49,443 nucleotides of DNA. It comes from a virus. A model generated the notes under the pieces. That model had not been told where the DNA came from and made no database searches. It saw only the letters and a list, made by a program, of their open reading frames with translations. This document shows, in pieces, positions 16,023-43,000 of the stretch (positions are counted from its first letter, which is position 1; each line of letters begins with the position of its first letter). The position numbers and the translations under genes were made by a program. The stretch spans positions 1 through 49,443 of IMG/VR virus record IMGVR_UViG_3300020473_000044. One strand, 5' to 3'.

Positions 16023-17034
16023 TAGATACTCCTCTCATCAAGCCATTGAGCTTTTGAAGCTTTCCAGCCTCCAGGTACTGAGCGTAGTATGTCAGCATCC
16101 CAGAAACCGAAGCTATGTACTCCTCAGGGGTTAGACCCCTCCCGTCCTTAGTAGCCTCTAGTGCTACAGCACTCCTCCCTGCCTTAGCTGCCCTCTCCAG
16201 GTTGTATAGCCTAGCCTCTAGCTTCCGCCTAGCAGGCCGGGACATACGGGGCGTATCCCCGTTTACTATTAGTCCTAGAACTCTTTGCTGCTCAGCCCTT
16301 CCAGCGATTGAGAACTTGTGCAGCTGGAACCCTTGAGAGACTAATGGCTGCCCCTTTAAGAACTCTAGAAAAGCCTTACCTGACCTATAGCTCTTAAACT
16401 TGAAGTACAAGTTATCCGAATACCTGAAATAGTCTATAAAACCGTACTGCTTCCTCCACTCCTCCACCCTAGGATCTATAAACTTAGCCCCTATACGGTT
16501 AGAGATCATTGGAGATCTAGGCCCGCCCTGTACCAGCCTCCCTCCCCGCAGCATCATACCTACGACCTGAGTTATCTGGTGCTCGGATAACATGTCTTCA
16601 CCAGCTAAGGGGTCGTAGCTGCCGCCTCCAGACATATCGTGCCCCCCGTTGTAGTACTCTCGGACTAGCTTAGTTACGTGCCTACCAGTAATACTTCCGT
16701 AGAAGTTGACTATGTCAGCGTGCACCAAGCATGCGGAGTTACACATGCGCGTAGCTGCCTTGCATATATTGGTGCCCGGTTCGTATGCTGCACTCCTACC
16801 AGCAGGCATAGGCTGGTACACCAGGTCACCAAGTAGTCTCTGCGTCTTTTTGAGTATCGGCGCTACAGAGTATACCACCCTACCACTTTTGATAGTCACC
16901 GGATTGTATCCCAGGTACTCTCCGCTACCCCCCGCTTCCTTCTTTAGGAGAGACCGCGCCAACCCGAAGGCCTTGTACGACATGCCCAGGGCCAACGGTA
17001 TGGCGGAGGATCTACTATCGATAAATGGTGACAC
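16009..17034 (-). CDS. Retron-like reverse transcriptase with YSDN catalytic motif
   Basis: A 341-aa protein with the order of conserved blocks of bacterial RTs. Residues 44-70 resemble the fingers start (basic, then KKTQRLL); motif A is HADIVNFYGSI with D107; motif B is QGGPRSPMISN (Q169-N179); motif C is RYSDNLYF (residues 204-211); the thumb side has RVLGLIVN (251-258) followed by SRPARRKLEARLY. The QG-x(3)-SP-x(3)-N form and the VxGLxVN block point to the retron/Abi-type side rather than diversity-generating RTs. In motif C the usual Y-x-D-D is YSDN: the first Asp is D207 and the second is N208 (codon AAC at 16411-16413). Activity may be reduced or altered. The start is GTG, overlapping the VWA gene stop as TAGTG. 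It stands in a six-gene coupled operon. No space for an msr-msd RNA exists next to it. Confidence 0.85.
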   Translation of the reverse strand: MSPFIDSRSSAIPLALGMSYKAFGLARSLLKKEAGGSGEYLGYNPVTIKSGRVVYSVAPILKKTQRLLGDLVYQPMPAGRSAAYEPGTNICKAATRMCNSACLVHADIVNFYGSITGRHVTKLVREYYNGGHDMSGGGSYDPLAGEDMLSEHQITQVVGMMLRGGRLVQGGPRSPMISNRIGAKFIDPRVEEWRKQYGFIDYFRYSDNLYFKFKSYRSGKAFLEFLKGQPLVSQGFQLHKFSIAGRAEQQRVLGLIVNGDTPRMSRPARRKLEARLYNLERAAKAGRSAVALEATKDGRGLTPEEYIASVSGMLTYYAQYLEAGKLQKLNGLMRGVSNASI

Positions 17035-18671
17035 TAGTCATCCATTTTTAGGAATCTACCATAGCCCGTATCCCCCCGGGATTCGGTAGTAGACGCACCC
17101 CACCTGTGCTCAAGGGAAGGGATACTGCCCCTGGAAGTGATGAGCCACAGTACCTTATTAGCGGGGTAGGCATTCCGCAGCTCTTCATTAGGCATCGGGG
17201 CTTCGCCGTCAGTAGCGTAGATCAGTAGATCCGGCTTCCTATCTATAGACCAGCCCCCAATCCGCTGCTTAATAGCCAGCTCGAATGGCGGGTCGAAGTA
17301 GGTGCCCCCACGCCCCTTAACACTGAGGTCACGCTTATCATCTAGGTCATATAGGTCGCATATAGAAGTGTCGCATTCGCACACTGTTACTGCTACATCC
17401 CCCATCTTCTTTAGCGCCATTAGCTCTGCAAATATCTCTAGGATCTCCCCCCTACTAACGCTACCGGAGGTGTCGATAGCCAGAAGGAGGTTCTTCTTCC
17501 TGAGCTTCTTCTTGCCCCGGCGAAGGGATCTACCGAATGTAGGCTTGCGGGAAGGTCGGGCGAAAGTAGCAACTTTCTCCGCCTTACTTGACCCCGCGAA
17601 TCTACGTAGCTCTGTACGCCAGTTAATAGTAGGCTCTCGTAGGGATGCCTCGATCATCTCCTGCAGTGAGCCGGGGATGGTACCTCGGTTCTTAGCGGCC
17701 TGCTGTGCTACCGACATGACCTTCTTGAACTCCCTACGGAGGGAATTAATCTCCTCAAGAGACTCCGAAGGGTCCTTGCCTGCTAGATCAATCAGCTCCT
17801 TCTCGAGAGGAGTCAGTCCGCCCCTACCGGGACCGGGACCGGGGCCATCTCCATCCTCAATATCCGGCATGGAGTCCACCACCTTCCTTAGGTTACCTGG
17901 CTCTCCGCTGGAAGTACCTGAACCCCCCGCCTCCTCGGTACTGGCCCCTGAGCCTCCTCCCTCAGAGCCTTCGCCTTCGGAGCCTTCGCCTTCGGAGCTA
18001 GATTCCCCCGACTCATCGCTAGACTCGGAGTCCCCCTGTCCAGCACCCCCCTCTAGGTACTCTTTTACGAACTCCTCCCCATCATTATCCACAGACTCAC
18101 AGATGAGCCGTACGTAGGTTTCTAGGCTCTGTAGGACTGGGAAGCCTCTGTCTGTGGGGTGGATGCCCCTATACCTACCGTAGGGCCGGTTGTAGTCCGG
18201 AGACATCGACTCCGTTGGAGAGCCAATATCGCAGTGCAGAAACTCCAGGGAGAATGTTCTCATGTCGTCAATAAGAAAGGAGTTCAGTGCGTAATCCGCA
18301 CCAAAGTGAATTACCTTCATAGCCTTAGCTCGGTCTTTACCCTCAAACTCCATAAGGATGAGGGCCATGCGGCTGATATGATCCAGGAGTAGGTGGCCCA
18401 TCTCGTGCCACAGCACCGCAGACGTAGCTTCAAGGGTCAGCTCGTTGACCATATTCTCATTGTAGAGCAGGATATAACGGCCGTCCGAGATGGTAACGGC
18501 CATAGTAGGCACCTCTTCTGATTGCTTAATCAGCAGCGAAGACGCTATGGTAGAGCAAATACCTCCCACGCTTTTGCTCCCCGCTAGTATGGCTAGCCTA
18601 CTATGCAGGCTATCCTTTAGGGTAGGCTTTTGGGCTGCCTTAAGCCTGCTTAGGTTTAAGCTTCTTCTCAT
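17034..18671 (-). CDS. Metallopeptidase-like plus VWA-domain protein (DUF2201-like)
   Basis: A 545-aa protein. The N-terminal domain has WHEMGHLLLDH (HExxH at 89-93), a zinc-peptidase-type helix. Residues 205-285 are a low-complexity linker of S, G, E and P. The C-terminal domain has LLLAIDTSGSVS (DTSGS at 400-404), the MIDAS start of a von Willebrand A fold, followed by an acidic strand LLIYATDGEAP. This layout is that of the DUF2201 family, whose genes are commonly found beside MoxR AAA+ ATPases. The MoxR gene here is at 20342-21520, separated by two rightward genes. AGGAG precedes the ATG at seven bases. It is the first gene of the RT operon. It may act as the ATPase's adaptor; proteolysis is not assured. 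Confidence 0.82.
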   Translation of the reverse strand: MRRSLNLSRLKAAQKPTLKDSLHSRLAILAGSKSVGGICSTIASSLLIKQSEEVPTMAVTISDGRYILLYNENMVNELTLEATSAVLWHEMGHLLLDHISRMALILMEFEGKDRAKAMKVIHFGADYALNSFLIDDMRTFSLEFLHCDIGSPTESMSPDYNRPYGRYRGIHPTDRGFPVLQSLETYVRLICESVDNDGEEFVKEYLEGGAGQGDSESSDESGESSSEGEGSEGEGSEGGGSGASTEEAGGSGTSSGEPGNLRKVVDSMPDIEDGDGPGPGPGRGGLTPLEKELIDLAGKDPSESLEEINSLRREFKKVMSVAQQAAKNRGTIPGSLQEMIEASLREPTINWRTELRRFAGSSKAEKVATFARPSRKPTFGRSLRRGKKKLRKKNLLLAIDTSGSVSRGEILEIFAELMALKKMGDVAVTVCECDTSICDLYDLDDKRDLSVKGRGGTYFDPPFELAIKQRIGGWSIDRKPDLLIYATDGEAPMPNEELRNAYPANKVLWLITSRGSIPSLEHRWGASTTESRGDTGYGRFLKMDD

Positions 18672-20341: not shown

Positions 20342-21520
20342 TTAGAAGTTACGACCAGCTTTCTTTATCTGCTCGATCGTGGAGTATAGCTCCCGCCACT
20401 CCTTAGGGTGGTGGGTGTTAATAGCTGTGGCCAGCTCATCGTGCCTCTGCCTATGACCACTAGCATTGTCGGTGGTCATAGCTATCAAGTGCTTAACTAG
20501 GAGATGCTTGGTCTCCTCAGTCAGCATAGCTGCTAGCTTGATAAAACCGGTAGCGAACTTGTCAGGCTGCCAGTCATCAGTAGCTGCGAGGTATTGACCC
20601 ACAGAGTTGACCGTTCTAGTGATAACATCACTACGACTATCCTTCTTCATCTTCTCTATGATAGGCTTAACCTTAGCAAAGTTAGTGAGCACGTCCTTCG
20701 GGTGGACTGAGTACTCTTTGTTCCGAGACCAGTCACAGAACGCAGCTGCGTGCTCAGAGCCGATTAGAGATGCGATGGCTGGCTCCACCATCCCAGCAGT
20801 TTCGTCGGCCACCTTCAGTAGGTTACTGACCTTATGCCAACTTGCGGGGGTCGGATAGAGCTTCTTAGCTGCACGAGCCTTCTCATCCAGTAGCGCCTCT
20901 GGGTTAATCTCAATAAAAGAGATAACCTCCTCCGACATGCCTACCTTCTTGGCATAGCGCAGCCATCCGCCTAGTGTGTGCTCCACCCAGTAGTGGCTAC
21001 CACGCCGTCGCCAAGCGGGGTCGCTAAGCATGTCAATGGTCTCGTAGTTCCCATCATCTGGGTTACAAGCGCACATGACGTATAGGTTCTCTGGCAACTT
21101 CTCCCCGTTAAGGGTGCGGTCACCAATCAGAGACCAAGCCACAGCGAGAGTAGCCTTATCCGCCCGGTTTATCTCGTCCAGGAACAGAATAACTGGCTTA
21201 CCTGCCTTAGCCTCTTCAATAGCGTCGTGGAGCTTCTTGGGCGGGAGCACATCGAAGTAGCTCGCCCCATCCTCTGGCCTCTGAGGAATACCAAAGCTAG
21301 TCTCATCCAGCTGGGCCATGTTATAGTCGTAAACTGAACCCCCGATGCTTACCCCCGCTTGATGTGCCATTGCAGTCTTACCGATGCCGGCGACACCCCA
21401 CAACACTACTACGTTGTGGGCTAGCATAGTATGAAGTAGGCTCTTAGACGGCCCCACTGCTACAGTGGGCATACCGTGTAGCGTCCCGAAGGACTTCTCT
21501 GAACTATCTAGGTTATTCAA
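20342..21520 (-). CDS. MoxR-type AAA+ ATPase
   Basis: A 392-aa protein with Walker A GVAGIGKT (42-49), Walker B ILFLDEINRA (D115, E116), a sensor 1 Asn in ACNPDD (about 152), and an arginine-containing stretch DPAWRRRGSHYW, as in MoxR ATPases. Start TTG at 21520 is chosen because GAGGGA lies at suitable spacing before it; an in-frame ATG at codon 17 lacks a good site. The start shares one base with the ATG of terminase on the other strand. MoxR ATPases usually work with VWA proteins; the DUF2201-like gene at 17034-18671 is the likely partner. Role in infection unknown. Confidence 0.85.
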   Translation of the reverse strand: MNNLDSSEKSFGTLHGMPTVAVGPSKSLLHTMLAHNVVVLWGVAGIGKTAMAHQAGVSIGGSVYDYNMAQLDETSFGIPQRPEDGASYFDVLPPKKLHDAIEEAKAGKPVILFLDEINRADKATLAVAWSLIGDRTLNGEKLPENLYVMCACNPDDGNYETIDMLSDPAWRRRGSHYWVEHTLGGWLRYAKKVGMSEEVISFIEINPEALLDEKARAAKKLYPTPASWHKVSNLLKVADETAGMVEPAIASLIGSEHAAAFCDWSRNKEYSVHPKDVLTNFAKVKPIIEKMKKDSRSDVITRTVNSVGQYLAATDDWQPDKFATGFIKLAAMLTEETKHLLVKHLIAMTTDNASGHRQRHDELATAINTHHPKEWRELYSTIEQIKKAGRNF

Positions 21521-23022
21521 TGTCTATTTCCCTCTCTAGGAAAGATCTAGCTGAATCTATCCTTCAGCTTGATGGTGATGACTTCTCTCTAGGGGACTAT
21601 CCCTTCTACGATGCCTTGTACACCGGGGAATACTCTAGAAGCATCCTCATGTGCGGTAGGCAGGTAGGGAAGTCCGTGTCTGCTGCTGCGTTCACAGTGT
21701 GCGAAGCCGTTGCTGTGCCTCACTTTAAGACACTGTATATATCGCCCACTCAGAAGCAGACTTCCACATTTAGTAACACCCGGATTAGTAAGCTGATTCA
21801 ACACTCCCCGGACTTGAGATCCATGATGGGTAGAGTTCTCAGCGACAACGTCTTTCTCAAAGTACTAGGCAACGGGTCGGAGCTCATCTTTAACTATGCT
21901 TCCGATGATGCTGACCGCGTCCGGGGTATCTCTGCAGACCGCGTTATCTACGACGAGGTGCAGGATATAGACTACCAGTCCGTAGTACCGGTAATTAACG
22001 AGTGCCTAGCTAACTCCAGGTTTGGGTATGTCTCCTACATGGGCACCCCCAAGACTATGGAGAACACCATTCAGTTTATCTGGGAACAGTCTACCCAGTC
22101 TGAATGGTGTATTAGGTGCGGCTCTTGCGGCAAGCGCTCATTCTACCGTAGCTCTCGCGGCATAACCGATACGGGCCTCGCATGCCTATCATGCGGAGCT
22201 CTCGTCGACGTTCGTGACGGTACTTGGGTAGACATGGCGCCTAACGCTAAAACCCAAGGGTTTCACATCCCCCAGGTTATCCTGCCCCAAAACCAGGTCC
22301 CTCACCGCTGGGAACGAATTACTCATAAACTCGAGACTTACCCAGAGAGTAAGTTTAATAACGAGGTTATGGGGGTTTCTGACTCCGTAGGCTCTAGGCT
22401 CATTGGTGTGGATGATCTAGCTGCCTGCTGCTCCGACTCGCCCCTGCCCGCTGCCGGATTTACCTGCGGAGGCGTAGACTGGTCTGGTGGCGGTACCTCT
22501 GGCGTGTCCCGCACCGTAGCGTGGGTGTTTTCCAACTCACCCGGCGGGACCTTCAACACCGTTGATTACAAAGTGTTTCCCAACCAGAACCCCGTCTCCA
22601 CCGTAGATGAACTAGCAACTTTCTTTTCTAGGTATCGCGTAAATCTAGTAATAGGCGATGCCGGAGAGGGGGCCTTGGCGAACTCACTGTTGCTCAGCAA
22701 GCTGCAGTGCCCCCTCTACCAGCTTCAGTACGGAAGCCAGACTAAACCTCTTAAATGGAATGGTATTGATCGCTACACTGCGGACCGCACCACTCTCATT
22801 GACTGCTTCTTTTATGACATCAAGAAAAAGCGTATAGCCTTTCTGGGCGAACCAAGGATGTCTGAAGCCTTCGAGGATTTTCTGGCTCTGTACGAAGAGG
22901 TCACTCCTGCTGGGAAGAAAGTCTGGCGACATTCTCCTAACAAACCGGACGACTGCTTACACGCCGCCGTCTTCTCATGGGTAGCCTGCAAAGTGCTTAC
23001 CCACGATATGACCTTTTACTAG
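21520..23022 (+). CDS. terL: Terminase large subunit
   Basis: A 500-aa protein with an N-terminal packaging ATPase: Walker A GRQVGKS (46-52), Walker B VIYDE (142-146), and a likely motif III YMGTP (173-177). The C-terminal nuclease has GGVDWSGGG (about 316), VIGDAGEG and a terminal KPDDCLHAAVF with an acidic pair, the RNase H-like TerL pattern. An insert at residues 197-225 carries five Cys (CIRCGSC, then CLSC), a zinc ribbon between the two domains; similar zinc ribbons are known in GpA-type terminases. It cuts and pumps concatemeric DNA into the procapsid. A terminator-like hairpin with a T run begins at the stop codon. The start overlaps the MoxR start by one base. Confidence 0.93.
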   Translation: MSISLSRKDLAESILQLDGDDFSLGDYPFYDALYTGEYSRSILMCGRQVGKSVSAAAFTVCEAVAVPHFKTLYISPTQKQTSTFSNTRISKLIQHSPDLRSMMGRVLSDNVFLKVLGNGSELIFNYASDDADRVRGISADRVIYDEVQDIDYQSVVPVINECLANSRFGYVSYMGTPKTMENTIQFIWEQSTQSEWCIRCGSCGKRSFYRSSRGITDTGLACLSCGALVDVRDGTWVDMAPNAKTQGFHIPQVILPQNQVPHRWERITHKLETYPESKFNNEVMGVSDSVGSRLIGVDDLAACCSDSPLPAAGFTCGGVDWSGGGTSGVSRTVAWVFSNSPGGTFNTVDYKVFPNQNPVSTVDELATFFSRYRVNLVIGDAGEGALANSLLLSKLQCPLYQLQYGSQTKPLKWNGIDRYTADRTTLIDCFFYDIKKKRIAFLGEPRMSEAFEDFLALYEEVTPAGKKVWRHSPNKPDDCLHAAVFSWVACKVLTHDMTFY

Positions 23023-23040
23023 CTTAGAGCTAGTTTTTTT
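23018..23040 (+). terminator. Intrinsic terminator-like hairpin after terL
   Basis: A six-base stem (ACTAGC and GCTAGT) with a five-base loop, directly followed by six T residues. It begins at the terL stop codon and should end rightward transcription. The stem is short and AT-rich, so termination may be partial. Confidence 0.65.
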
Positions 23041-23128
23041 ACACGCAGGGACTAATTAGTCCTGCCTTAGATGGGATGTAGGTCCTATCCCTATCTCTGC
23101 ACTAGTCACCGGCATAATGCCGGCATTA
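23041..23128 (-). repeat. Structured repeat unit 1 of 3 (leftmost)
   Basis: 88 bases. Read on the minus strand: GGTGACTAGTG at 23110-23100, then a hairpin GGGAT...ATCCC (loop with TAGGACC), then TAAG, then hairpin GCAGGACTAATTAGTCCCTGC (with one bulged base), then GTGT. On the plus strand it begins ACACGCA and the palindrome CCGGCAT-A-ATGCCGG closes it (23110-23124). It shares flanks with units 2 and 3, but the hairpin sequences differ, so pairing rather than sequence is kept. Confidence 0.75.
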
Positions 23129-23235
23129 ACACGCACCCCTAGAGGTGCCCTTATGTTGAGATGTCCGGAAAGATCGTCTTCCCGATCGTCCGGACATCCA
23201 ACCCTCCACTAGTCACCAACATACTGTCGGCATAA
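23129..23235 (-). repeat. Structured repeat unit 2 of 3
   Basis: 107 bases. Minus-strand order: GGTGACTAGTGG (23217-23206), a two-part hairpin with a 10-bp outer stem (GATGTCCGGA with TCCGGACATC, 23160-23199) and a 5-bp inner stem (CGATC/GATCG), then ATAAG, then hairpin GCACC-CTAGG-GGTGC, then GTGT. The plus-strand left edge is ACACGCA. The first hairpin is entirely different in sequence from those of units 1 and 3. Confidence 0.75.
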
Positions 23236-23339
23236 ACACGCAGGGCTTGTCAGCCCTGCCTTACGTGGAAGAGCTCGCCTGGCGAAAAATGTTTTCGCCA
23301 GGCGAGCTATGACTCCCTCCACTAGTCGCCCCACTCTAC
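23236..23339 (-). repeat. Structured repeat unit 3 of 3 (rightmost)
   Basis: 104 bases. Minus-strand order: GGCGACTAGTGG (23330-23319), a perfect 17-bp hairpin (AGCTCGCCTGGCGAAAA with its complement, three-base loop, about 23272-23308), then GTAAG, then a perfect 8-bp hairpin (GCAGGGCT-GACA-AGCCCTGC, 23240-23259), then GTGT. The plus-strand left edge is ACACGCA. It is the unit closest to the leftward promoter-like element at 23355-23392. Confidence 0.78.
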
Positions 23340-23354
23340 ATACGCAATAGTGGA

Positions 23355-23392
23355 ACGTTATCTTATACCACTATAGTGTGGATATTTGCGTG
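23355..23392 (-). promoter_or_regulatory. Leftward promoter-like element upstream of the repeat array
   Basis: Minus strand: CACGCAAA (23392-23385), 13 bases, then GTGGTATAAG (23371-23362), continuing to ACGT at 23355. The same two blocks at identical spacing occur at 33586-33616, and a close copy at 40058-40089. TATAAG with a TG two bases earlier looks like an extended -10 box; CACGCAAA sits where a -35 box would be (17 bases). It lies two bases after the polymerase stop codon and points into the array. Confidence 0.6.
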
Positions 23393-23393
23393 C

Positions 23394-26300
23394 TTAGCTA
23401 ACCTCCCCGTAGGAGGGGCCGATCTCTACATCATAGGGCATGGACACGGGCACCTCTGGAAACTCAGCTTTGATAAACTTGTCCACCTTCTCCGCTAGAA
23501 ACCCCTCTAGCTTCGGTACTTCTGACTTCGGCATTTCCCACACCATAGAGTCGTGTACCGTTAGCATCATCCTACCCCTAATCGCTTGCATGCTCTTCCA
23601 TAGATTAATCATCGTGCGGATGACTATCTCACCACAGAAGCCCTGCACTAGGTAGTTGATACCTTGCCGCTCGCACCGGGCTGCATACCAACCCCCCGCC
23701 CCAGCCGTGTAGAACCTTCTCGCCCTACCTGTAGGGGTACGGAGTATATTGTCGCTGCGTACCTTAGCCTTAATCCTATCTATGTAGTCCTTAATACCGG
23801 GGAAGCGGTTGAAGAACATAGCCATCAGCTTCGCCGCCTCATCCTCCGAAATCTTCAGATCCTCGCTTAGACCCTTTACCCCTGTGCCGTAGATAAGACC
23901 GAAGTTAACACTTTTAACACGCTTACGCATAGTGGTGTACTTGTCTCTTAGCTCAGCCTCTTCTGGATTAGTAGAGTTCCTGTAGTACTGGATGTCGTCA
24001 TACTTCTCCCCGAATATCTCACTCGCCACCCAAGAGTGCACATCCAAGCCATCTTTGAGAGCCTGTATTAGGGTGGGCTCGTCTGCGTACGCTGTAAGGA
24101 CCCTGATCTCTGCACCCCCAAAGTCCACATCCACTACTACTAGCTCCTCTCCAACCTCCCACCTGTACTTTTCCCGTAACGCAACCTCAGTTGCGCTAGC
24201 CTCAGACGAGGTATCAGTGGGCACAAACAGCTTCTTGATGTTTATCCCACCCAGCTTCTTAGGGAAGGTCTGTAGGTTAGGGTTGGATGAGCTGGTCCTT
24301 CCGGTAGCAGTACCATTGATATGGATGGTCCCCCGTAATCTACCGTCGTAAGCGGAACCTCTCTTGATTCCTAGTACAAAAGTAGTAAGCGCCTTAGATG
24401 ACTTCCTAACTTTGAGGAGGAGATTAGCTGGGTTGCTGGACAATAGCTCGTCCCGCATCTCGTCCGAGATATCTCCCAGTCCATTAGCCTCTAAGTACTC
24501 TTCTACATCCCTAGTGAGAAGGAGATCGATGTACTTCTTAAGGGATTCTTCATCAGCAGAAGCCTCCCCCGTCTCCGTAGTCTTAACTCTAGGCAACCCG
24601 TACCCAGCTATAAACACTTTAGAGACCAGCAATTTCTCTTGTATATCTATGTTGTCCGGCGTCAATCCTAGGTCTTTAGCTACTCTATCGTAGAATGCGG
24701 AGCTCCACTCCTGGATCTTACCCTCTAGGGACCTCTGGCAGTAATCGAGGTGTTCATAGTCTACTCTAATACCCTCGTACTGCATCTGAGCCAACATCTC
24801 AGTAGCGGGCAGGAAATGCCTGGACATTAGGGATATCATGGGGGCCAACCCCTCAGCTTTAGCCTGCTTAGGGCTGTGCTCTTTCCAAGCCCTCAGCCTC
24901 TGAGAATCGCTTATCCTCCAGGTTAGATCCGCGTCCACCGCAGCGTATTCCAACATCATCTGCATCGGGGGCTCTTCGTAAGTCACCCCGTCGTAGTGGG
25001 GATTGCCATCCCAGCGGTGCCGCTTTCTATGAGTAAAGAACTTCTTGAGTCCAGCCTTGGCTGCAGACATCTCCTTCTTACACTCTGCTGCCCACCCTTT
25101 TATGGCTGCAATAGCTCCGTCTATAGCTTCTTTATTCGCAGCAGTTTGTCCCTTCTTCATCTTTCTAAGCTTGGCCACATACTTTTTAGAAGAAGACTCG
25201 ACAGTAGTAAGATCAAACCCATGCCCTATGGGGGAGGTATCCGGGTAATACAACCCATCTACTTCGTTGGGGTCAGTAGAGGCTACCCGAGAAAATGACT
25301 CATCGAACTCTCGAACCGTAGCAGCATCTAGCGCCTCTTTGAGGCTGCTCTCGTAACCCACTAGCTCGGGGTGCTCCTCTACTGCAACAGTCTTAAGGCC
25401 GTAGAAGCTCTTTCTATCCTCATCCAGCATATACTCCCCAAGCATACCATCCCACTTAGTGTTTCTCACGGGGCCGAATTTCAGCATGTAGTCCATGCTC
25501 ATCCCGGAGACTTCCTCAATAGTTTCTTCCAGTCCGGGATGTAGCGCACAAGCCTCCGCCGTACGTAGCATTAGTGGGTACAGGGCCATGCTGTAGTCGA
25601 ACTTGTAGTTCCACCAGGTTTTAGGGTTGTCACATCCCAACACTTTCAGTACCCAAGGGATAATCTCGTGGAACTCGTATGGGGAGTCCTTATGATCCAC
25701 CGGCACAGCGAAAGACTTCCCTGGACCCACTGACCCCGACAGCGCAATAATTCTAGCAGTCTTGGACCACTGCCAGAGAGTAGTGGTCTCGAAGTCCAAA
25801 GCCATCATGCACTGATTAGCGGGCTTACCCCCTGTAGAGTAGTTGGCGTACTCGTCACAGATAGCTATAGCATCCTCCAGAGAGGTGGGTATGTCGAAAC
25901 CCTTTATTAGCTTGGGCACATCTAGAGCCTCAGCGCTGGACCCCGCTGCGGCTACGGCAGCTTTCTTGAGGTCGTTCTCTACTAGGCTATACAAGCCTGG
26001 GTTGCGGAAGAACCGAGCTAGGCTGAAAGTAGGCATGACCTTGAAAGGCCTGCCTGCAACCTGCACTGTTACTACCCTACCCCGTATCTCTTCAGCGTTC
26101 GCATCTAATCCCAAACCATTTAAGGGGCGGCTACCAAAGCACACAATAATCTTTGGATTTAGGTTGTGCACTTTCTGATATATAATGCTGGTAGCGCAGG
26201 TATTAAAAACCTCTTTAGTATTCTTACCGGGACAACAAGCCCCGTACATATAGTGTGCACGGGCAGCCATTGATTGTAGTGGCCCGTTTACCTTGCCGGA

Positions 26301-26492
26301 AATCCTTTCCGAACTAGCCATCTGGCTTACCATATGCTTTACTAGACGGCCTGCGTTGTCATTGAAAACTCCTCCCCACGGTGGAGGAGCTTCACCTAGA
26401 AATAGTACATCACAGGGGCTGGCGCCCACCCCAACCTCAAAGGTAGATTCCTTGAAATTAGGGCAGGATTGACACCCACTAGGCTTCATCAT
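23394..26492 (-). CDS. Family A DNA polymerase with N-terminal uracil-DNA-glycosylase-like domain
   Basis: 1032 aa from the ATG at 26492, chosen because AGAGG lies six bases before it and it forms ATGA with the primase stop; a GTG at 26513 is the longer alternative. Residues 1-180 resemble family 4-type UDG: C7, C10, about C87 and C99 for a 4Fe-4S cluster, GEAPP (33-37), CFGSRPLNGLG, and PTFS (154-157) where active enzymes have H-P-S. Next is a 3'-5' exonuclease: LDFET (D233, E235), NYKFDY, YAAVDAD. The polymerase has motif A DVDFGGAEIR (near 787), motif B RKRVKSVNFGLIYG (near 857) and motif C VHDS (near 980). SPO1 DNA polymerase is a known example of a UDG-like domain fused to PolA. It should be the phage replicase; proofreading looks intact, while the UDG domain may be non-catalytic. 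Confidence 0.92.
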   Translation of the reverse strand: MMKPSGCQSCPNFKESTFEVGVGASPCDVLFLGEAPPPWGGVFNDNAGRLVKHMVSQMASSERISGKVNGPLQSMAARAHYMYGACCPGKNTKEVFNTCATSIIYQKVHNLNPKIIVCFGSRPLNGLGLDANAEEIRGRVVTVQVAGRPFKVMPTFSLARFFRNPGLYSLVENDLKKAAVAAAGSSAEALDVPKLIKGFDIPTSLEDAIAICDEYANYSTGGKPANQCMMALDFETTTLWQWSKTARIIALSGSVGPGKSFAVPVDHKDSPYEFHEIIPWVLKVLGCDNPKTWWNYKFDYSMALYPLMLRTAEACALHPGLEETIEEVSGMSMDYMLKFGPVRNTKWDGMLGEYMLDEDRKSFYGLKTVAVEEHPELVGYESSLKEALDAATVREFDESFSRVASTDPNEVDGLYYPDTSPIGHGFDLTTVESSSKKYVAKLRKMKKGQTAANKEAIDGAIAAIKGWAAECKKEMSAAKAGLKKFFTHRKRHRWDGNPHYDGVTYEEPPMQMMLEYAAVDADLTWRISDSQRLRAWKEHSPKQAKAEGLAPMISLMSRHFLPATEMLAQMQYEGIRVDYEHLDYCQRSLEGKIQEWSSAFYDRVAKDLGLTPDNIDIQEKLLVSKVFIAGYGLPRVKTTETGEASADEESLKKYIDLLLTRDVEEYLEANGLGDISDEMRDELLSSNPANLLLKVRKSSKALTTFVLGIKRGSAYDGRLRGTIHINGTATGRTSSSNPNLQTFPKKLGGINIKKLFVPTDTSSEASATEVALREKYRWEVGEELVVVDVDFGGAEIRVLTAYADEPTLIQALKDGLDVHSWVASEIFGEKYDDIQYYRNSTNPEEAELRDKYTTMRKRVKSVNFGLIYGTGVKGLSEDLKISEDEAAKLMAMFFNRFPGIKDYIDRIKAKVRSDNILRTPTGRARRFYTAGAGGWYAARCERQGINYLVQGFCGEIVIRTMINLWKSMQAIRGRMMLTVHDSMVWEMPKSEVPKLEGFLAEKVDKFIKAEFPEVPVSMPYDVEIGPSYGEVS

Positions 26493-29400
26493 GTTGTACC
26501 TCTCTGATCCCACGAATCCAGCATCTCGGTGATATCATATATGGTGATATCTGATGCGGTGATTCCCGGACGTAGCACTGAGGTTAGCCCTCCAAGGCGA
26601 CGACGTACCGTGTGGTAGTTTTTAGTATTAGGGCTGGAGTCTCCCATCCGTTTTAGTCTCTCTGCGGTATCCTTACCATACCGGTTGGATCCCCTAAGCA
26701 GCTGTCTAACTACGTCTGGCCACATTACAATTAACCAGCGCTCTCGGTTACCGTTGTTTAGATCCTCAACATAGGATAGACCACAATCCATCTCTATTAG
26801 GCTGTGCCTCGCAGTGGGATCGGATAGTATAGTACGAACTGAGGTGTTACGACTTTCACTTCCCGGGCGCTTGTGCTCTACCTTCGAGCTTAGGATTGTA
26901 TCCAGTAGGTCCTGCTCCTGTGTAGATGTAGTGATTATCTCTAGGAGCTCTTTTTTCGATTTTATAACTCTTAGTATGTAGGAGTGTGGGTTCAGCCCAA
27001 CGCAAGCCACCATGGCTCCGGTCACTACCACCCCATCCAAAAACCTCGAGGGTACGGTTGCCCCGACCTCTTTACTTAGGGCATCCATTATAGCGGGCTG
27101 GCTGTATGTGGCGCGTAACTCTGTTAGATTTTTGAGGTACTCAGGGGCCAGCCTGTACATACCAGTAGATAGAGCCCTTCGATACTTCTGAATAGTTTCC
27201 TGCCCAAAGGTATTGAGCATAGTTGTATGTGGGTCACTTTTAGACTCACAACGTACTGTATGGATCTGCATGAATCGGCTTACATCAGCCTCTTCCCGCA
27301 AGTAGTTAATCGCGCCAGCCCAGATCTGACATCGTAGAGTGTAGACGGTTGCCTCTTTACTCTCTACGTTACCACGTGTGATTCGACATACTGGACTGTT
27401 AGTTAAGCCTCTGATATCCGTTAGTATTCCACGTACAGATCTGGAGTGCGAGTCGTCCCCCTTGTCTTCGAACTCATCAAGTGCGGCCCCTAGTGCGCAG
27501 TTGTTCATGTCCTTACGGAACCCGGCAGTGGTGTATGCCTGCTGAACATCCGCGGTGCATTCCAGCAATCTCACCGTGGGGTCGGAGCCCGCAATAATAT
27601 CTAAAAGCTTAGATTTGCCCGTGCCTCTAGCCCCGTTGATTAGCGTATACAGCTGCCTAGGTAAGCAGCTAGAGATGGCATTGACCATCATAGCTGCAGC
27701 GAGGTACTCACAGTCCTCCAAGCCCCCTTTTAGTGTCCAGCCCGTATGGATTGCAGATACTAGAAAATCATATACATCAGAGTGCTTTACAGAGTTTCCC
27801 TGCTCTAAATCTAGGCAACTAGTGATCTCGGTAGACCAAGGCGCCCGCACAATGTTGAAGTACCTATCTCCTAGACGCGGGCCGTCGAGACAAGTCCACT
27901 CCAACGTACACTCGTCCGTGTACCTACCTATATATACCTCATGCCCATTAACTAGAGCCCAGCAAGTCTCGGGTCCCGCCCCGAAGTCGTGCTCTACATA
28001 GTGTGCGCCAGCTTTGGTTTCGGTTAGGCTGCGCGTAGTAGGTAGTTCCCCGCATAACTGCGAAAGTGCTATCTGCATATACCCCCCCACTGTGGTGCTC
28101 TGTTCTGGTATTTTTATTGTACCGCCCTTGGAGGTCGTTATGATTGCCTGCGGAATGCCTACGGTACTTTTTAGCCAATAGAGTATGGACCCTAAGTCCT
28201 GAGATATTTGAGAGTAGAGCTCTGTTGTCCGGCTCATTCTCCACTCTCTAGGCTCCTTCTTCTTCCTGTGCCAAGCCCGGATGAGAGTGTCGCTACCCTT
28301 GCTTCCATCTATTCCAATGAAGAAGAACTCCTCCCTCAAGGCTTGTAGTATCCTAGCTATAAATCCCTCCTCGCTGTCGTCTCTCCCTACGACCAACTCT
28401 AGTATAGTCCCTATAGTTAGGGTGCACATTTTGCTTACCGCTCTAGCGTAGGCCATCTGTGCTTCAGGCTCCCTTAGGCAGCTCCCATCCTGCCCTATAA
28501 CTTCCTTCTGCCCCCTTAGGTCGTCTGGGTCTAAGGACGCTAACTTAGCCTTAGTAACACCCGCTAGCCATACGTGCGCAGCTTTGAAGTTAACCCACTT
28601 CTGATGAGTGCCTTCTGTTCTTTTAGCTGTTAGAGCTGATAACCAGGTCTCCCAGCCATGCTTCTTAATAGCCTTATCGGGATCTTTAGCCTCTACTTCT
28701 GGTGGCCAAGAAAATACCTTAACCGGCATGGAGGTCTGAGACATGATGATCTTAGCTATAGCGTCCCCTCCGTGATCCGGGTGGTCACATACCAGCATCA
28801 CTTCTGATACGCCGCAGTACTCTTTAAGAATATCCGGGCTAGATACGGATGCCCCGCCACAGGCAACTACTACTTCGTAGCTAAGGCCACTCTGGAACTC
28901 AACCATGTGTGCTAGTGCGTCTGTCTCCCCCTCCACTATCATGGCTCTCTTACCAGCCTTTTGTGCCCCCCACAGCATCGCTGAGTAGAATGGTAATCCA
29001 AAGAAGCCTATGGTCTCCTCATTCGCATCCGGGACATAGTGCGTGGATCTTGCTCCATCTGGTCGGAGGAAGTCTGATCTCAGCTTGAACCTAGTGATCT
29101 CAGTAGGAGATTTATGATACGCTAGGAGTAGTGCCCCGGTATTGGGCCCCGTCATAGAGGATTCTAAATAAGAAATAGAGTGCTCCAATATATCCTCAGG
29201 CAGATGCTTTACTAGTTCTACCCTGGGTGGCAGTACGCCTATCGGAAGCTTACCTAAAGTGTCATCTGTGGGGACTCCCCTAGACTCTAAGAAGTCTAGC
29301 AGAGGCACTGCGTATTTATGTCTTTCAGAGTCCTTTGACTTTGCCGCCATCACCAGAGCAGTGTTGCAGGCGGATAGTATCCCAGTTTTAATAGTCTGAC

Positions 29401-31368: not shown

Positions 31369-32031
31369 ATGCTAACGCACACCTTTCTAGATGTTTACTA
31401 CAACGATCTGTCTAAGGTTGTAGTCTTGAGCCGGGCCCAAGAAGACCAGCTGTTTAAGGAATATTATTCTCCAGAGGTCACTGAAGCCAGAAAAAAAGAT
31501 ATCCATCGGCAGATTGTAGAAAGTAATCTACGTTTGGTTTTCTTAATGGCCAAGCGTATTTGGAGAGATAAGGACCCCTCCACTTTGGAAGAGTTAATTA
31601 GTAACGGGAATGAGGGTCTTCTCTTGGCGTTTTCCAAGTTTGACCACACCCGTAATATAAGGTTCTGCACCTACGCCGGACATTGGATATTCATGTCCAT
31701 GCGCAAGCATAGTACCTCATTAGTTAGAGTTCCTCAGGGCAGGCCCATACCGGTGTACGTATCCGATATAGTCATACCTGAGGAGTCCACAGAGCACGCC
31801 TACTTCTCGTCTAGGCAATCTGCTGATGAGAAGCTAGCCCTCGCTGAGTTTCTTAGATTCCTCACTCAGCGAGAGCGCTTCATAGTAGAAAACAGCTATG
31901 GCCTCAACGGCGGCTCTTGCTGTTCCCTGAGAGAGCTGTCAACTACCCTAGGCCTGAGCTCAGAGCGCATCAGGCAAATCAAGTCTGAAGCAGTCGACAA
32001 GCTCTCTCGCTGGACCAAATACTACGAGTAA
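31369..32031 (+). CDS. Sigma-70-family RNA polymerase sigma factor
   Basis: A 220-aa protein with clear sigma regions. Region 1.2-like: FLDVYYNDLSKVVVLSRAQE; region 2: ESNLRLVFLMAKRIW (51-65), STLEELISNGNEGLLLAFSKFD, then RFCTYAGHWI (98-107), the -10 reading helices; region 3 is short (VRVPQGRPIP); region 4: LTQRERFIVENSYGLNG, then LSSERIRQIKSEAVDKL (195-211), the -35 helix-turn-helix. It should give promoter choice for host or phage core polymerase. Its ATG abuts that of the leftward SSB-like gene in CATATG, and its end overlaps the ParB-like gene by ten bases tail to tail, so it is a lone rightward gene in the replication region. Confidence 0.92.
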   Translation: MLTHTFLDVYYNDLSKVVVLSRAQEDQLFKEYYSPEVTEARKKDIHRQIVESNLRLVFLMAKRIWRDKDPSTLEELISNGNEGLLLAFSKFDHTRNIRFCTYAGHWIFMSMRKHSTSLVRVPQGRPIPVYVSDIVIPEESTEHAYFSSRQSADEKLALAEFLRFLTQRERFIVENSYGLNGGSCCSLRELSTTLGLSSERIRQIKSEAVDKLSRWTKYYE

Positions 32032-33155: not shown

Positions 33156-33918
33156 GGATGTTCTTACCTCTACAGTTGCCCCAATTGCTGCACCATTTCT
33201 CGGAGCAGGCCCAGCTCGTGGGAGTGGTTCTAGGGAAGTTTCCTCTTGAAATATTTAGTGCAACCTCCCCAATAAGTTCCTCAAAGTAGTCGAGCTCGTG
33301 TTTAGCGAACTCGTAGCGGGCCACCGCCACTTTCGGAGTCTTGGTCTTTACAAGACTGTCGAAGCGGACGCAAGGGATATCCGTAGCCATAGAGTAGATA
33401 GCGAGCTGCACGGAGTCTCTAGCATCTCCGATGCTCTTAGCGCGCTTAGTTACCTTGAGGTCACAGACCTCTTGGTACCCTGCCCCGGCGTCGATATAGT
33501 CTACGAAGCCTTTGCAGGGGGCATCCCCGATCACCTTCTCTACCTCCATTTCTGTTGCTGTGATAGCGAGGTGTGGGGACACATCCTTATACCACACATT
33601 GTATAATTTTTGCGTGTAGTCCAGCCACTGCTCGAGGCCATCACCCTCTAGGTCTACAGTGGTAGGGTCGAAGTAGCCTCGAAGGTCATCCTCGATGATA
33701 TCCGTGATGTCCTCCGTGGTTAGTAGGGTGTCGTTTAGCGTGGCTTGGAGGTGTGTCTCCACCATCTTGTGCACTCCGCTACCTACACTCATAGCTGCGG
33801 GCCTCTTTACCTCTGGGCGAACTCCAAGCACGTACTCGGCCTCGTACTTCTTGGGACAGGTTAGATAGAGATTGATCTGACTAGCAGACAGATAGCCTTT
33901 TGGCAGATTAAGGGCCAT
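33142..33918 (-). CDS. Cas4/RecB-like Fe-S nuclease (second of two)
   Basis: A 258-aa PD-(D/E)XK-type protein: C21 in YLTCPKKYEAEY, H50 (GSGVHKMVE), D140 (GFVDYID), VCDLKVTK (D153, K155), QLAIYSM (Q171), and C238, C243 and C249 near the end, again a four-Cys Fe-S arrangement but with spacing 4 and 5 rather than 2 and 5. It differs enough from the copy at 29746-30546 to suggest an old divergence or separate acquisition. It is second in a helicase-nuclease-ParB operon, starting one base after the helicase stop; helicase plus nuclease may work as an end-processing unit. Confidence 0.83.
   Translation of the reverse strand: MALNLPKGYLSASQINLYLTCPKKYEAEYVLGVRPEVKRPAAMSVGSGVHKMVETHLQATLNDTLLTTEDITDIIEDDLRGYFDPTTVDLEGDGLEQWLDYTQKLYNVWYKDVSPHLAITATEMEVEKVIGDAPCKGFVDYIDAGAGYQEVCDLKVTKRAKSIGDARDSVQLAIYSMATDIPCVRFDSLVKTKTPKVAVARYEFAKHELDYFEELIGEVALNISRGNFPRTTPTSWACSEKWCSNWGNCRGKNIHEYI
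33586..33616 (-). promoter_or_regulatory. Leftward promoter-like element inside nuclease gene
   Basis: Minus strand CACGCAAA (33616-33609), 13 bases, GTGGTATAAG (33595-33586): the same 18 fixed bases at the same spacing as at 23362-23392. It is coding sequence, so chance is possible, but the agreement is strong. It would drive the ParB-like gene about 430 bases downstream. Confidence 0.5.
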
Positions 33919-37953: not shown

Positions 37954-38008
37954 ACACTATAGATAAAGTAACTATGCTTGGGGCGGCTGCAACAATAAGG
38001 AGGCCCCA

Positions 38009-38188
38009 ATGCGCAGAGTAGTTACCTTGATTATGGCTTGTATCCTACCAGGATCCTGTGAGTTACAGAGTGAAGACCTGCCTAGGTTAGAGGATCCTAC
38101 TCTCACCCACAGGCACATTGTCTTAGATGGTGTGCCCGTACACGTCTTAGACTTCGGTACGCCTATAGTAGTTAAGTCTGATAGCTAA
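38009..38188 (+). CDS. Small putative lipoprotein (59 aa)
   Basis: Found by reading the gap after the portal-linked genes. AAGGAGG lies seven bases before the ATG, the best ribosome site nearby. The protein starts with MRRVVTLIMACILPGSC: positive, hydrophobic, then Cys at 17 with Gly-Ser before it, a lipobox-like end (Ser at -1 is allowed; Pro at -3 is unusual). The remainder is 42 residues, polar then strand-like (HIVLDGVPVHVLDFG). A small outer-membrane lipoprotein, as in lysis (spanin) or superinfection exclusion, is conceivable; there is no direct evidence. A large hairpin region follows. Confidence 0.6.
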   Translation: MRRVVTLIMACILPGSCELQSEDLPRLEDPTLTHRHIVLDGVPVHVLDFGTPIVVKSDS

Positions 38189-38190
38189 AG

Positions 38191-38240
38191 AAAAGCGGCC
38201 AGTCTGCCATTAGATGTCAGCACCTAGTGCTGACCGCTTT
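38191..38240 (+). terminator. Nested hairpin, likely terminator
   Basis: Outer arms AAAGCGG (38192-38198) and CCGCTTT (38234-38240); within them a perfect 8-bp stem GTCAGCAC-CTA-GTGCTGAC (38216-38234) shares its right arm and so competes. Three bases after the lipoprotein stop. The T run is only three long, so it may act as a weak or two-way terminator between convergent units (the leftward 121-aa gene ends at 38286). Confidence 0.5.
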
Positions 38241-38285
38241 CCTTACCTTAGTTGAAAGGGTTCACGTCTGTATGTCCACAAGACA

Positions 38286-38724: not shown

Positions 38725-39912
38725 TTAGAGATCCGCAGCCCGCTCTAGCATTTTGTCAAACCAATGAGCTGCGTCATACACCGCAGCCTTCTTGGTCTTA
38801 GTGGGGGGCGCTACCCACCCCGGGATTCCCACCCCCGCTTTGCGTATCTGCGGTATCGATGAGGCCTCATCGAGGCTATCCGTGTGGGCGGAGAACTCGA
38901 GAGAGGCCTCTTGAGCCAGCTCGTGGTTTAGAAGCCCCCGGCAATCGCCCTTGAGAGCGCGTAGCATGGCGCTCTTACGATACGCCACCTTTTGGAAGCG
39001 GCCGTCCAGCTCCCTCAGCTTCGCGATGGCCGCATTCCGGCGGCCGCCCTTGGCGTGCTTGATAGTAGCCCAGGCTGCCGCCAGCTCCCTATTATTCCCC
39101 CGCATAGCCCTCAACACGTTTACCTGAGGGTCCTCCGCCAAGATGGCGGAGTTGGCTTTATCCGCCTCCTTCGCAGCCTTCCGTCTCTCTGCGTCCTCGA
39201 GAGTGAGCCACTCTCTCGCCGCCGCCACTTGCGCCCCGTACTCCCGGAGGATGGAGGCCAATCCCGCCATTTTGGCCTCCCGGTTCACCTCCATTAGGGC
39301 TGCCTGGATCTCAGCATCTACGGCTGATTGGAGGTCTGCCTCCGCCTTGGCCGCCTCCTCAGCCGCTGCCGCCTCGGCATTGGCTGCCTCCTCCGCTTCT
39401 CGCGCCTTCTTCTCCGCCCACGCCTTTCGGCGCTCTAGGGCTTCGAAGGCTTCCCGTACTGGGCCACCGACCAGCCGGGATATAACAGTAGCATCCTCGC
39501 CCAGCAGCTGCTGTAGCGAGGCGATAGTGCGTAGTGGACCCCGGGAGGTCTTGACCGGCCCCAATTCCCGGTTGGGTAGGATCTCCACTAACCCTCTCCA
39601 GGACATCAGCGCCTCGCGGTGAGTAGCAGTAAGCTCGGCATTGCCGAGGAAGGAGATTACAGTGGAGCGAGCCCAATCGCCTAGCTCCACCACGTCCATA
39701 GTAAGCGGGGCACGCCACCTAAGCCCCGCCGGCCTGCCGCTTTCGCCCACAGGTGACATAATCTCCCCCACTTTCTGTTTCACCTCCAGCGCATCCTTCC
39801 CATGCGCTGCATAAACTTGCTCCAATGCGGCCTGGAGCTGCGCCCGGGTTGGACGCTTAGTAGTAGTAGTACGCTCGGATCCTGAGCGCTTAGTCTTACG
39901 TGAGTCAGCCAT
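38725..39912 (-). CDS. Ala-rich coiled-coil protein, GC-rich gene
   Basis: A 395-aa protein with AGGAAGGAG before its ATG. The N-terminus is basic and Thr-rich (residues 1-25), residues 155-260 are a long Ala/Glu/Lys coiled coil (EEAANAEAAAAEEAAKAEAD), and the C-terminus is mixed. The gene is visibly more GC-rich than its neighbours, with GCC, GGC and CTC codons where adjacent genes use CTA, GTA and AGG, suggesting separate origin or a protein-imposed bias. Scaffolding, filament or DNA-binding roles are possible. No family recognised. Confidence 0.6.
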   Translation of the reverse strand: MADSRKTKRSGSERTTTTKRPTRAQLQAALEQVYAAHGKDALEVKQKVGEIMSPVGESGRPAGLRWRAPLTMDVVELGDWARSTVISFLGNAELTATHREALMSWRGLVEILPNRELGPVKTSRGPLRTIASLQQLLGEDATVISRLVGGPVREAFEALERRKAWAEKKAREAEEAANAEAAAAEEAAKAEADLQSAVDAEIQAALMEVNREAKMAGLASILREYGAQVAAAREWLTLEDAERRKAAKEADKANSAILAEDPQVNVLRAMRGNNRELAAAWATIKHAKGGRRNAAIAKLRELDGRFQKVAYRKSAMLRALKGDCRGLLNHELAQEASLEFSAHTDSLDEASSIPQIRKAGVGIPGWVAPPTKTKKAAVYDAAHWFDKMLERAADL

Positions 39913-40050: not shown

Positions 40051-40089
40051 ACGTATACTTATAACAACTAAAACGGTTATTTTTGCGTG
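40051..40089 (-). promoter_or_regulatory. Promoter-like element before RNA polymerase fusion gene
   Basis: Minus strand CACGCAAA (40089-40082), 14 bases, TTGTTATAAG (40067-40058), running on to TATACGT. The block matches the elements at 23362-23392 and 33586-33616 (one base longer spacing), and its -10 half is identical to 35821-35836. Leftward use would serve the 395-aa gene; the plus-strand TATACT/TATAAC could also start the polymerase gene 34-40 bases downstream. Confidence 0.6.
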
Positions 40090-40099
40090 AGGGCTACGC

Positions 40100-43000
40100 A
40101 TGTCCGACAACAAAAGAGTTATGCCTATATTTCAGAGCCCGTATGTTAGGACGTCTAGGATACGTGAGAAGGCCATTGAGGGAGTTAGAGACCTGTTCCC
40201 CATAATAGGTACCCACTACGATATCCATGCAACCAACCTACATATGGACCCCCATAAAAGGTCTACATACTCTGAGCAAAAAAGAGCAATGTATAAGGGA
40301 GGGTCTATATACGACCCTATAAAAGCAACGATAGAGATACGGGATAAGTCCGGTAAAGTAGTCTCAAAAAAGAATAAACATACTGTGATGCATGTGCCTA
40401 CGGTTACTGGGCGCGGAACCATGGTAGTAAATGGCAACGAGTATGCAATGAAGCACCAGCTCCGTACTCTGCCGGGAGTGTACACCCGACGTAGGGGCAA
40501 TGATGAAATGGAGGCCAGCTTTAACTTATCTAAGGGGGCTAACTTCCGAGTATCTATGGATACCCGTAAGGGGCACCTTCAGATGGAGTATGGTACGGCA
40601 AAAATACCTATGTACCCCGTGCTGCGTAAGCTGGGTCTAGAGCATAACGATATATCTAAGTACTGGGGTAAGGGGCTAGCAGACCGCAATAGGGACTCCT
40701 ACGAAAAGAAGAGCGCCTCGGCGGTAGGTAAGCTCTACGAGAGGATCATCCCCCCATCTAAGAGGGTGCACAAGGGTACTAACGACAAAGTAAATGCCAT
40801 CAAAGACTACTTCGAGAATAATACCGAGTTATCCGAGGAGACTACTGCTCGAACTCTGGGTAAGTCGTTTAATAGGGTCACCCCGGAGTCCTTGCTGGCT
40901 GCTAGCCGTAAGCTAGTACGGGTTTACAATGAGGAAGAGGAAGAGGACGATCGAGACAGCCTAGAGTTTCAGAAGGTTTTGGCTCCCGAGGACCTAATCA
41001 AAGAGAGGCTGAGAAGCCGGGCTAGAGAGATTCAATTTAAGCTGCGTAATAAGCTGGACCTCGCTCAGGATGTTAGGGTGGGTAAGGTAATGCCTACCGC
41101 TACCACTGCCGCTGAGCTGAAGAAGTACATAGCTAGCTCCCAGCTAGCAGTGCTTCCCTCCCAGATAAATCCTATCGAGCAGGTGGATAGTCAAATGGCT
41201 GTTACTCGCCTAGGGGAGGGTGGTATCGCCAGTGAGCGGGCCATACCCGGGGGTGTCAGAAAGCTGCACCCTTCCACTCTAGGCGTTATAGACCCCTTTA
41301 GGACTCCAGAGTCCAGCCAGGTAGGCGTAGACGTTAGGTTTGCTTTGGGAGCCGGTAGGGACGCGAACGGCAGGATTTACTCCAAGCTCCGTAACCTTAA
41401 GACAGGTAAGATGGAGTACGTCCCTACTACTAAGATGCGTGACTTGACTATAGCATTTCCGGAGCAGGAGCTTAAAAAGGGTAATGTAGACGTCGTCGAT
41501 AAAGGCACGGTTTCCAAAGTAAAGGCAGGCAAAGCTCAGTACGCGGTGGACTCTGTTAAGGACATGTATACCGTAAACACCAATATGATACCCCTGATGG
41601 ATGGCTCCCAGGGCAACCGACTTATCATGGGCAGTAAGATGGTAGGACAGGCTCTACCTCTGGTTATGCGGGAGGAGCCTTTAGTACAGTCTGCAGTGGA
41701 TTCCAAAGAGTCTACTTCCATGGAAGAAGTAATCTCAGAGATGTCAGATATTCGTCTGTTCAAAGACAGGGGTACTGCCGAGGTTACTGAAGTAACTAAG
41801 GATGCGATCACTATAAAGCGGGATGGTAAGGTAGATAAAGTTAGCATAGCTAACAATCTACCTATGGCGTCTAAGACCTTCTTCCACCACAGCCCAGTAG
41901 TAAAGGTTGGAGACAAGCTGAAGCCGGGCGCTATACTGGCCAAGAGCAACTTCACACGTAATGGTAAGATGGCCTTGGGCAAAAATATGAATATCGCTTA
42001 CTTAGCGTATCATGGGCTAAACTCTAACGATGCTGTAGTCATCTCTAAGGGGGCCGCGGAGAAGCTGTCCTCCGTAAAGATGAGTAAGTATGTTATTGAA
42101 GAAGATAAAGAAACACGCGTAGACCATAATAAGCACTCTGCTAACTTCCCTAGAATCTTTAATAAAGACCAATATTCCAAGCTGAACAAGGGAGTAGTTC
42201 GTGTGGGGCAGAAGCTAAAGGCGGGGGACCCCATAGCTACGGTACTGAGGAAGAGGCCACCGTCTATTGAGAACCAGGTACTGGGTAAAATCCATAAGAG
42301 CCTACGTCAGGAGTTTAGTGATAACTCTGAGGTCTGGGACTCAGCCTCAGAGGGGGAGGTTGTAGCCGTAGAGAAAGAGGGTAAGCGTACTACAGTCATA
42401 GTTAAGTCCGTAGAAAAGATGAAGCTAGGGGATAAGGTCAGCAATCGCTACGGAGGCAAGGGTGTTGTCTCTAAGATAGTAGATGACGAAGATATGGTGC
42501 AGGATGAGTCGGGCAAGCCCATAGATATGCTTTGGTCTTCTTTGGGCGTAGTCAGCCGTATCAACCCCGCTCAAGTGGTTGAGACTGCTTTGGCTAAAGT
42601 AGCTCGTAAGAGAGGTAAAGCCTACAAGGTGGCTAGCTTTAAGAACCGAAACAACGTAGAGTTTGCCAGACAAGAGATGAAGAAGCACGGGGTCAAGGAC
42701 AAAGAGACAGTATACGACCCAATAACAGGGAAGAAGATACCCAATATCATGGTGGGACCTCAGTACACATATAAGCTGTTCAAGAGCACGGACACTAACT
42801 ACTCTGCCCGAGGCATCGACGGCAGCTATGACGTGAATGATCTACCCGCTAAGGGGGGCATCACGGGAGCTAAGGGCACGGGTATCATGGAGATTAATGC
42901 TCTCCTAGCCCATGATGCCCGGGATATCCTAAAAGAGAACGCCATTCTAAAGGGTACCCGCAATAGCGAGTACTGGAGGGCTATGCAGCTCGGCAGACCT

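Follow-up and report, generated by a model that had tools for sequence, protein, structure and literature searches.

What is the element that fills the gap between terL and the DNA polymerase gene in virus record IMGVR_UViG_3300020473_000044, and does it act as RNA or as DNA? The stretch analysed here (the window) comprises 49,443 nt of this record, and the element is an array of hairpins on its minus strand at 23041-23357. On one side of the gap lies terL (21520-23022) and on the other, convergent with it, the DNA polymerase gene (23394-26513). A preliminary description had reported three two-hairpin units with changed stems and had proposed selection on structure, in RNA or single-stranded DNA. 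Comparison with related phages indicates that the array is almost certainly a structured RNA. The best overall explanation, held at somewhat less than even confidence, is a non-coding RNA gene that makes a chain of units serving as a multivalent scaffold or decoy.

To begin with the structure, the minus strand of the 339-nt region folds at -162 kcal/mol, compared with -108 +/- 5.6 kcal/mol in 100 dinucleotide shuffles (z = -9.6). A stretch within the array region was also the most stable among 146 sampled 340-nt stretches. Relatives were collected via TerL and polymerase homology. Polymerase identity is 88-95% in the closest two, L003 and L004, and about 28-46% in most others, whose intergenic DNA has little in common with that of the window. 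L003 and L004 carry arrays of the same type as the window. In arrays of this type all cells of the triloop hairpin (54/54) are paired, with 8 double changes compared with 2.2 in shuffles. The short hairpin is paired in 90% of cells and shows 9 double changes compared with 4.1 in shuffles. In unit 1 of L003 and L004 the lower stem is kept and the upper stem is swapped for a different, equally paired sequence. Covariation of the stems, first noticed among the three units, was thus borne out both between units and between phages, and pairing is conserved in the relatives.

Mismatch patterns were used to distinguish RNA from DNA. The most regular element of the arrays is a 7-bp arm capped by an NNA triloop. 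Perfect copies number 48 in 18.5 kb of gaps, compared with 0.46 in shuffles. Among arms with one non-Watson-Crick position, 31 have G-U and only 2 have A-C on the polymerase strand, where shuffles give about 1.3 and 1.1, respectively. Because G-U is tolerated and A-C is not, on one strand only, selection acts on minus-strand RNA; a DNA cruciform would not give a one-strand G-U bias. The choice between RNA and single-stranded DNA is thereby narrowed to minus-strand RNA. DNA-hairpin promoters of the N4 type were considered for the 7-bp/triloop shape and were ruled out by the one-sided G-U tolerance together with an ordinary-looking promoter.

That promoter lies ahead of most arrays and reads into them. 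It is a phage-type promoter, ACGCAAAAA-TGKTATAAG (CGCAAA, 14 bases, TGKTATAAG), and in the window it sits just past the polymerase stop codon. The array transcript should start a few bases downstream of the extended -10 box. TGKTATAAG occurs five times in the window, compared with 0.93 expected; the other copies are at 40066, 35836, 33594 and 18894, all on the minus strand, and two lie shortly upstream of protein genes. The sites include one upstream of the helicase gene and one upstream of an unidentified open reading frame (ORF) at 38725-39912. The copies at 40066 and 33594 also have the CGCAAAAAT upstream box. The CGCAAA box and its spacing are identical ahead of most relatives' arrays and at 33594(-), and the spacing is one base longer at 40066(-). 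When viral contigs were searched for exact copies of the full motif, 18 stretches were returned, 13/18 of them from this phage group. A promoter type that is shared with protein genes and points into most arrays also favours RNA. The ORF at 38725-39912 is itself a second stable region; it was rejected as a structured RNA, having a plausible coding sequence.

We wondered whether the relatives' arrays, so different in sequence, follow a common plan. In most of them the unit is closed by a stem, P1, of 6-14 bp and free sequence, with GC directly inside its 5' strand and UUG, AAG or UCG directly ahead of its 3' strand. Within the unit a short stem, P2, carries the 7-bp arm with its NNA triloop, which usually has a G-C closing pair; the bulge on the 3' side of P2 is mostly 4-9 nt long, 7-8 nt being commonest. 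P1-closed units span 94-206 nt. Among about 40 units of this general type there are 35 distinct P1 sequences, and a G-C closing pair was counted in 37/42 cases. An exact 7-bp P1 at the 3' motif was found 26 times, compared with 0.6 in shuffles, and 23 times when GC was also demanded, compared with 0.045. The general rule, P1-GC...NNG-P1' around a 7-bp/NNA arm, describes about 40 of the relatives' units, a 40-500 fold excess over shuffles. When the full rule was run on both strands of all loci (3.4 Mb of strand sequence), it matched these gaps and almost nothing else. Clusters of 7-bp/NNA hairpins are likewise confined, among about 160 loci, to the terL-polymerase gaps of this phage group.

The window array was then set beside this plan. 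It has a leader hairpin and three two-hairpin units, and at each of the two junctions between units stands a 7-bp hairpin with an NUA triloop. Every unit shows, as first described, GGYGACTAGTG followed by the long hairpin, AAG, the short GC hairpin and GTGT, and the stated difference in long-hairpin stems holds (17 bp at 23272-23308, 10 bp plus a smaller inner helix at 23155-23202, and 4+5 bp at 23070-23095). With zero mismatches GGYGACTAGTG has just three sites in the window, all on the minus strand (23320-23330, 23207-23217 and 23100-23110), and the G, C, T, A and G of its GRCTAG core are invariant in 13 aligned units. The inter-unit hairpins (23215-23231 and 23108-23124), the leader hairpin (23327-23357) and the promoter (23362-23390) had been overlooked. 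The gap had also been called the only large one in the window. At 371 nt it is the largest, but according to the ORF list a second gap, 37954-38285, measures 332 nt. The features, in the order of transcription, are as follows.

23385-23390, minus strand: upstream promoter box CGCAAA (in ACGCAAATAT), 17 nt ahead of TATAAG.
23362-23370, minus strand: extended -10 box TGGTATAAG, conserved in relatives.
23327-23357, minus strand: leader hairpin, from the RNA fold; L003 and L004 have a leader hairpin too, with bases changed.
23318-23327, minus strand: start of unit 1, GACTAGTGGA, from the motif search (GGYGACTAGTG match at 23320-23330).
23265-23322, minus strand: unit 1 long hairpin, from folds, with a 17-bp upper stem (23272-23308) and the lower stem GTGGAGG/CTTCCAC.
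23240-23259, minus strand: unit 1 short hairpin, flanked by AAG and GTGT, from folds and covariation.
23215-23231, minus strand: 7-bp arm with GUA triloop at the junction of units 1 and 2, from covariation.
23207-23217, minus strand: start of unit 2, GGTGACTAGTG, from the motif search.
23155-23202, minus strand: unit 2 long hairpin (GATGTCCGGA stem plus inner helix), from folds; almost the same in L003 and L004.
23133-23149, minus strand: unit 2 short hairpin, from folds and covariation.
23108-23124, minus strand: 7-bp arm with UUA triloop at the junction of units 2 and 3, from covariation.
23100-23110, minus strand: start of unit 3, GGTGACTAGTG, from the motif search.
23070-23095, minus strand: unit 3 long hairpin, a short version, from the fold.
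23041-23065, minus strand: unit 3 short hairpin and terminal GTGT, from folds and covariation.
23018-23040, plus strand: intrinsic terminator of terL (stem 23018-23034, then a T run), which bounds the array and lies outside the RNA.

Read in this order, the window array has a 7-bp NUA arm, then the 8-nt GACUAGUG, the long hairpin and AAG; the hairpin past AAG pairs locally. The order GC(G), linker, arm, 8 nt, hairpin, AAG is common to the window array and the general unit. Because the order of parts is the same, the arrays of the window, L003 and L004 appear to be a diverged, rearranged form of the general unit. The window array also shares with the proposed class its locus, its promoter and its tandem 7-bp/NNA arms.

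Several observations weigh against the explanation as a non-coding RNA gene. The P1-GC frame is absent from the arrays of the window, L003 and L004, so that what links them to the general type is the shared locus and promoter, the order in which the parts follow each other and the 7-bp/NNA arm. The preliminary description had suggested searching phage genomes with a covariance model of the units. Such a model, built from 13 window-type units, matched the window, L003 and L004 and no others; it had kept five pairs, as MAFFT could not align the changed stems. Because of this narrow reach it was replaced by explicit structural counts. P1 and P2 were found by a pairing search, with shuffles as the control and kinship among the phages ignored, and an alignment of P1 strands was out of register and left unused. 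P1 mismatches are less one-sided than those of the arm (14 G-U, 5 A-C and 11 other). Finally, the terL-polymerase gaps of L019, L049, L050, L052 and L053 hold no array.

About 20 related contigs carry an array or a single unit in this gap, with one to about fourteen units each; L011 and L043 are among those with a single unit. In the gap of contig IMGVR_UViG_3300047550_003468 (L059) two tandem units are near-identical, with a handful of differences, and by their sequences this pair is a recent duplication. Contigs 3300007539 and 3300025674 have an array-free terL-polymerase gap, and the promoter lies elsewhere, followed by an arm-bearing RNA. In L173, where the downstream kilobases are readable, a long array follows past one ORF at a locus that is not terL/polymerase. 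Because array and promoter occur at another locus in this lineage, the array is not tied to the polymerase or terL, a strong point in favour of its being a gene in its own right. The structure, its strand, the conserved locus and promoter, free sequence under a fixed architecture, variable unit number and the other locus in one lineage are all strongly supported.

By terL and RNA polymerase, Salmonella phage Arash is the closest of the named phages, and it has plus-strand genes after its terL; no arm cluster was seen in the parts of its genome that were read. BLASTN against named phages gave no match. One relative, L155 (QMZE01000001.1), is filed under an Archaeoglobales genome. It encodes this group's TerL (48%) and polymerase, likewise arranged convergently, and it is probably a misbinned virus or an archaeal virus.

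Does the array belong to a known RNA family? Rfam 15, which includes GOLLD, ROOL and OLE, gave no match in the window at the gathering threshold and none in five relatives at E<=1. At E<=5 the arrays of the window, L012 and L054 returned only unrelated matches at chance level, none near the gathering score. Hammerhead and other self-cleaving ribozymes were rejected, as no conserved core was apparent by eye and none was reported by Rfam. ARAGORN found no tRNA or tmRNA gene in the window, and no description of such an array was found in the open-access literature. Sponge RNAs of the CsrB/CsrC type carry many copies of a small protein-binding hairpin, in which the CsrA signal is GGA in the loop. 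The array resembles them in having many copies of one small hairpin per RNA, but that hairpin has an exact 7-bp stem with an NNA loop. Integron attC sites are DNA sites between gene cassettes, have RYYYAAC/GTTRRRY boxes and are read by structure. They too are arrayed free-sequence hairpins, whereas the present array lacks cassettes and is constrained as RNA. The type III antitoxin ToxI and the pseudo-ToxI of phage PhiTE are also tandem structured RNA repeats, and the latter are phage-borne with a copy number that shifts under host defence (PMC3475682, PMC5086642). Pseudo-ToxI shows that such RNA does serve phages in countering host defence (PMC3475682). ToxI repeats, however, are about 36 nt and nearly identical, whereas the array units are about 90-200 nt and unrelated in sequence. 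No type III toxin-antitoxin pair or endoribonuclease toxin gene was recognised beside the array, whose flanks are terL and DNA polymerase (in relatives by homology). The GOLLD and ROOL RNAs of phages and prophages assemble into cages, and their function is unknown (PMC12286853). Like the array they are phage-coded, long, extensively structured and non-coding, but they often lie near tRNA islands, whereas the window has no tRNA and the array has a variable number of tandem units.

These results suggest how the element might work. The promoter just past the polymerase stop codon would drive a minus-strand transcript, which would fold into a chain of 1 to about 14 units per phage with the 7-bp NNA-triloop arm repeated along it. 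Because the promoter type is shared with replication-side genes, the transcript may be made early or in the middle of infection. One protein would bind the repeated arm, and the chain would be a multivalent scaffold or decoy; a decoy would most likely sequester a host factor. One small arm repeated in variable number, among stems that change fast, most resembles an RNA offering many protein-binding sites, and the variable unit number and the L059 duplication fit a multivalent binder. The scaffold or decoy role itself is put forward tentatively, as distinctly less probable than not.

Other explanations were weighed against this one. The transcript might be cut between units, each P1-closed unit then acting as a small regulatory RNA or as a cofactor of a phage protein. 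That most relatives close each unit with its own stem and that L011 and L043 have one unit each would suit such a precursor. It is nevertheless unlikely, since no conserved cleavage sequence was seen, window-subtype units are not closed by their own stem, and no conserved unpaired stretch is long enough for an antisense guide. Less likely still is a structural role in an assembly, whether a phage ribonucleoprotein or one made of RNA alone, located in the virion or in replication bodies. The RNA is phage-coded and very stable, with conserved architecture and free sequence, and GOLLD and ROOL set a precedent with their cages (PMC12286853), but a unit number of 1 to about 14 is ill-suited to a fixed assembly and Rfam matched neither RNA.

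The position of the array bears on the remaining alternatives. With a promoter of its own, it usually adjoins the DNA polymerase gene, as would a replication origin whose transcript primes DNA synthesis and whose structure controls the RNA-DNA hybrid. The L173 array, lying away from polymerase and terL, makes this improbable, and priming does not explain arms repeated up to 14 times. The least credible proposals, to which we give very little weight, are a DNA element and ordinary termination. Free-sequence inverted repeats are also typical of DNA sites read by structure, such as attC, and cruciforms or single-stranded hairpins could be read by a recombinase, packaging enzyme or RNA polymerase; against this, mismatches are G-U and not A-C on one strand only, a regularly spaced promoter precedes most arrays, and no cassette genes lie between the window units. 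Bidirectional terminators, or a 3' untranslated region protecting polymerase mRNA, would suit a locus where two genes converge. A lenient scan for terminator patterns accepts one array hairpin, which is followed by GTGTTT, and terL has its own terminator there. Yet termination does not call for elaborate units in numbers of three to fourteen, these are not followed by a real T run, the promoter lies between polymerase and array, and the L173 array occurs without the polymerase.

Other features of the window were also recorded. The phage encodes a multisubunit RNA polymerase in which beta and part of beta' are fused and the rest of beta' is separate (40100-44464 and 45455-47230, plus strand). 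Among named phages, Salmonella phage Arash and Vibrio phages D69, D181 and D148 come closest, at 33-34% identity. Two sigma-like proteins are encoded at 1156-1851 and 31369-32031 (plus strand). The protein at 17034-18671 (minus strand) is an HNH endonuclease according to PHROGs and has DUF2201 metallopeptidase-like and VWA-like domains according to Pfam; this protein and the AAA ATPase at 20342-21520 resemble a MoxR/VWA-type pair. On the minus strand of the second-largest gap (37954-38285), a branched hairpin precedes TTTTCTTT, the two probably forming a terminator.

The array may represent a new class of phage RNA whose architecture, and not its sequence, is inherited, with units multiplied and diversified perhaps as decoys against changing host proteins; we consider this possible, without thinking it the likelier outcome. 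If it is transcribed as its sequence suggests, a group of uncultured phages carries a non-coding RNA class outside Rfam. Homology searches miss the array because its sequence has diverged almost completely while the architecture has stayed strict, and the rule P1-GC...NNG-P1' around the 7-bp/NNA arm makes the class searchable. That unit number varies and stems turn over fast suggests that the array takes part in conflict with the host.
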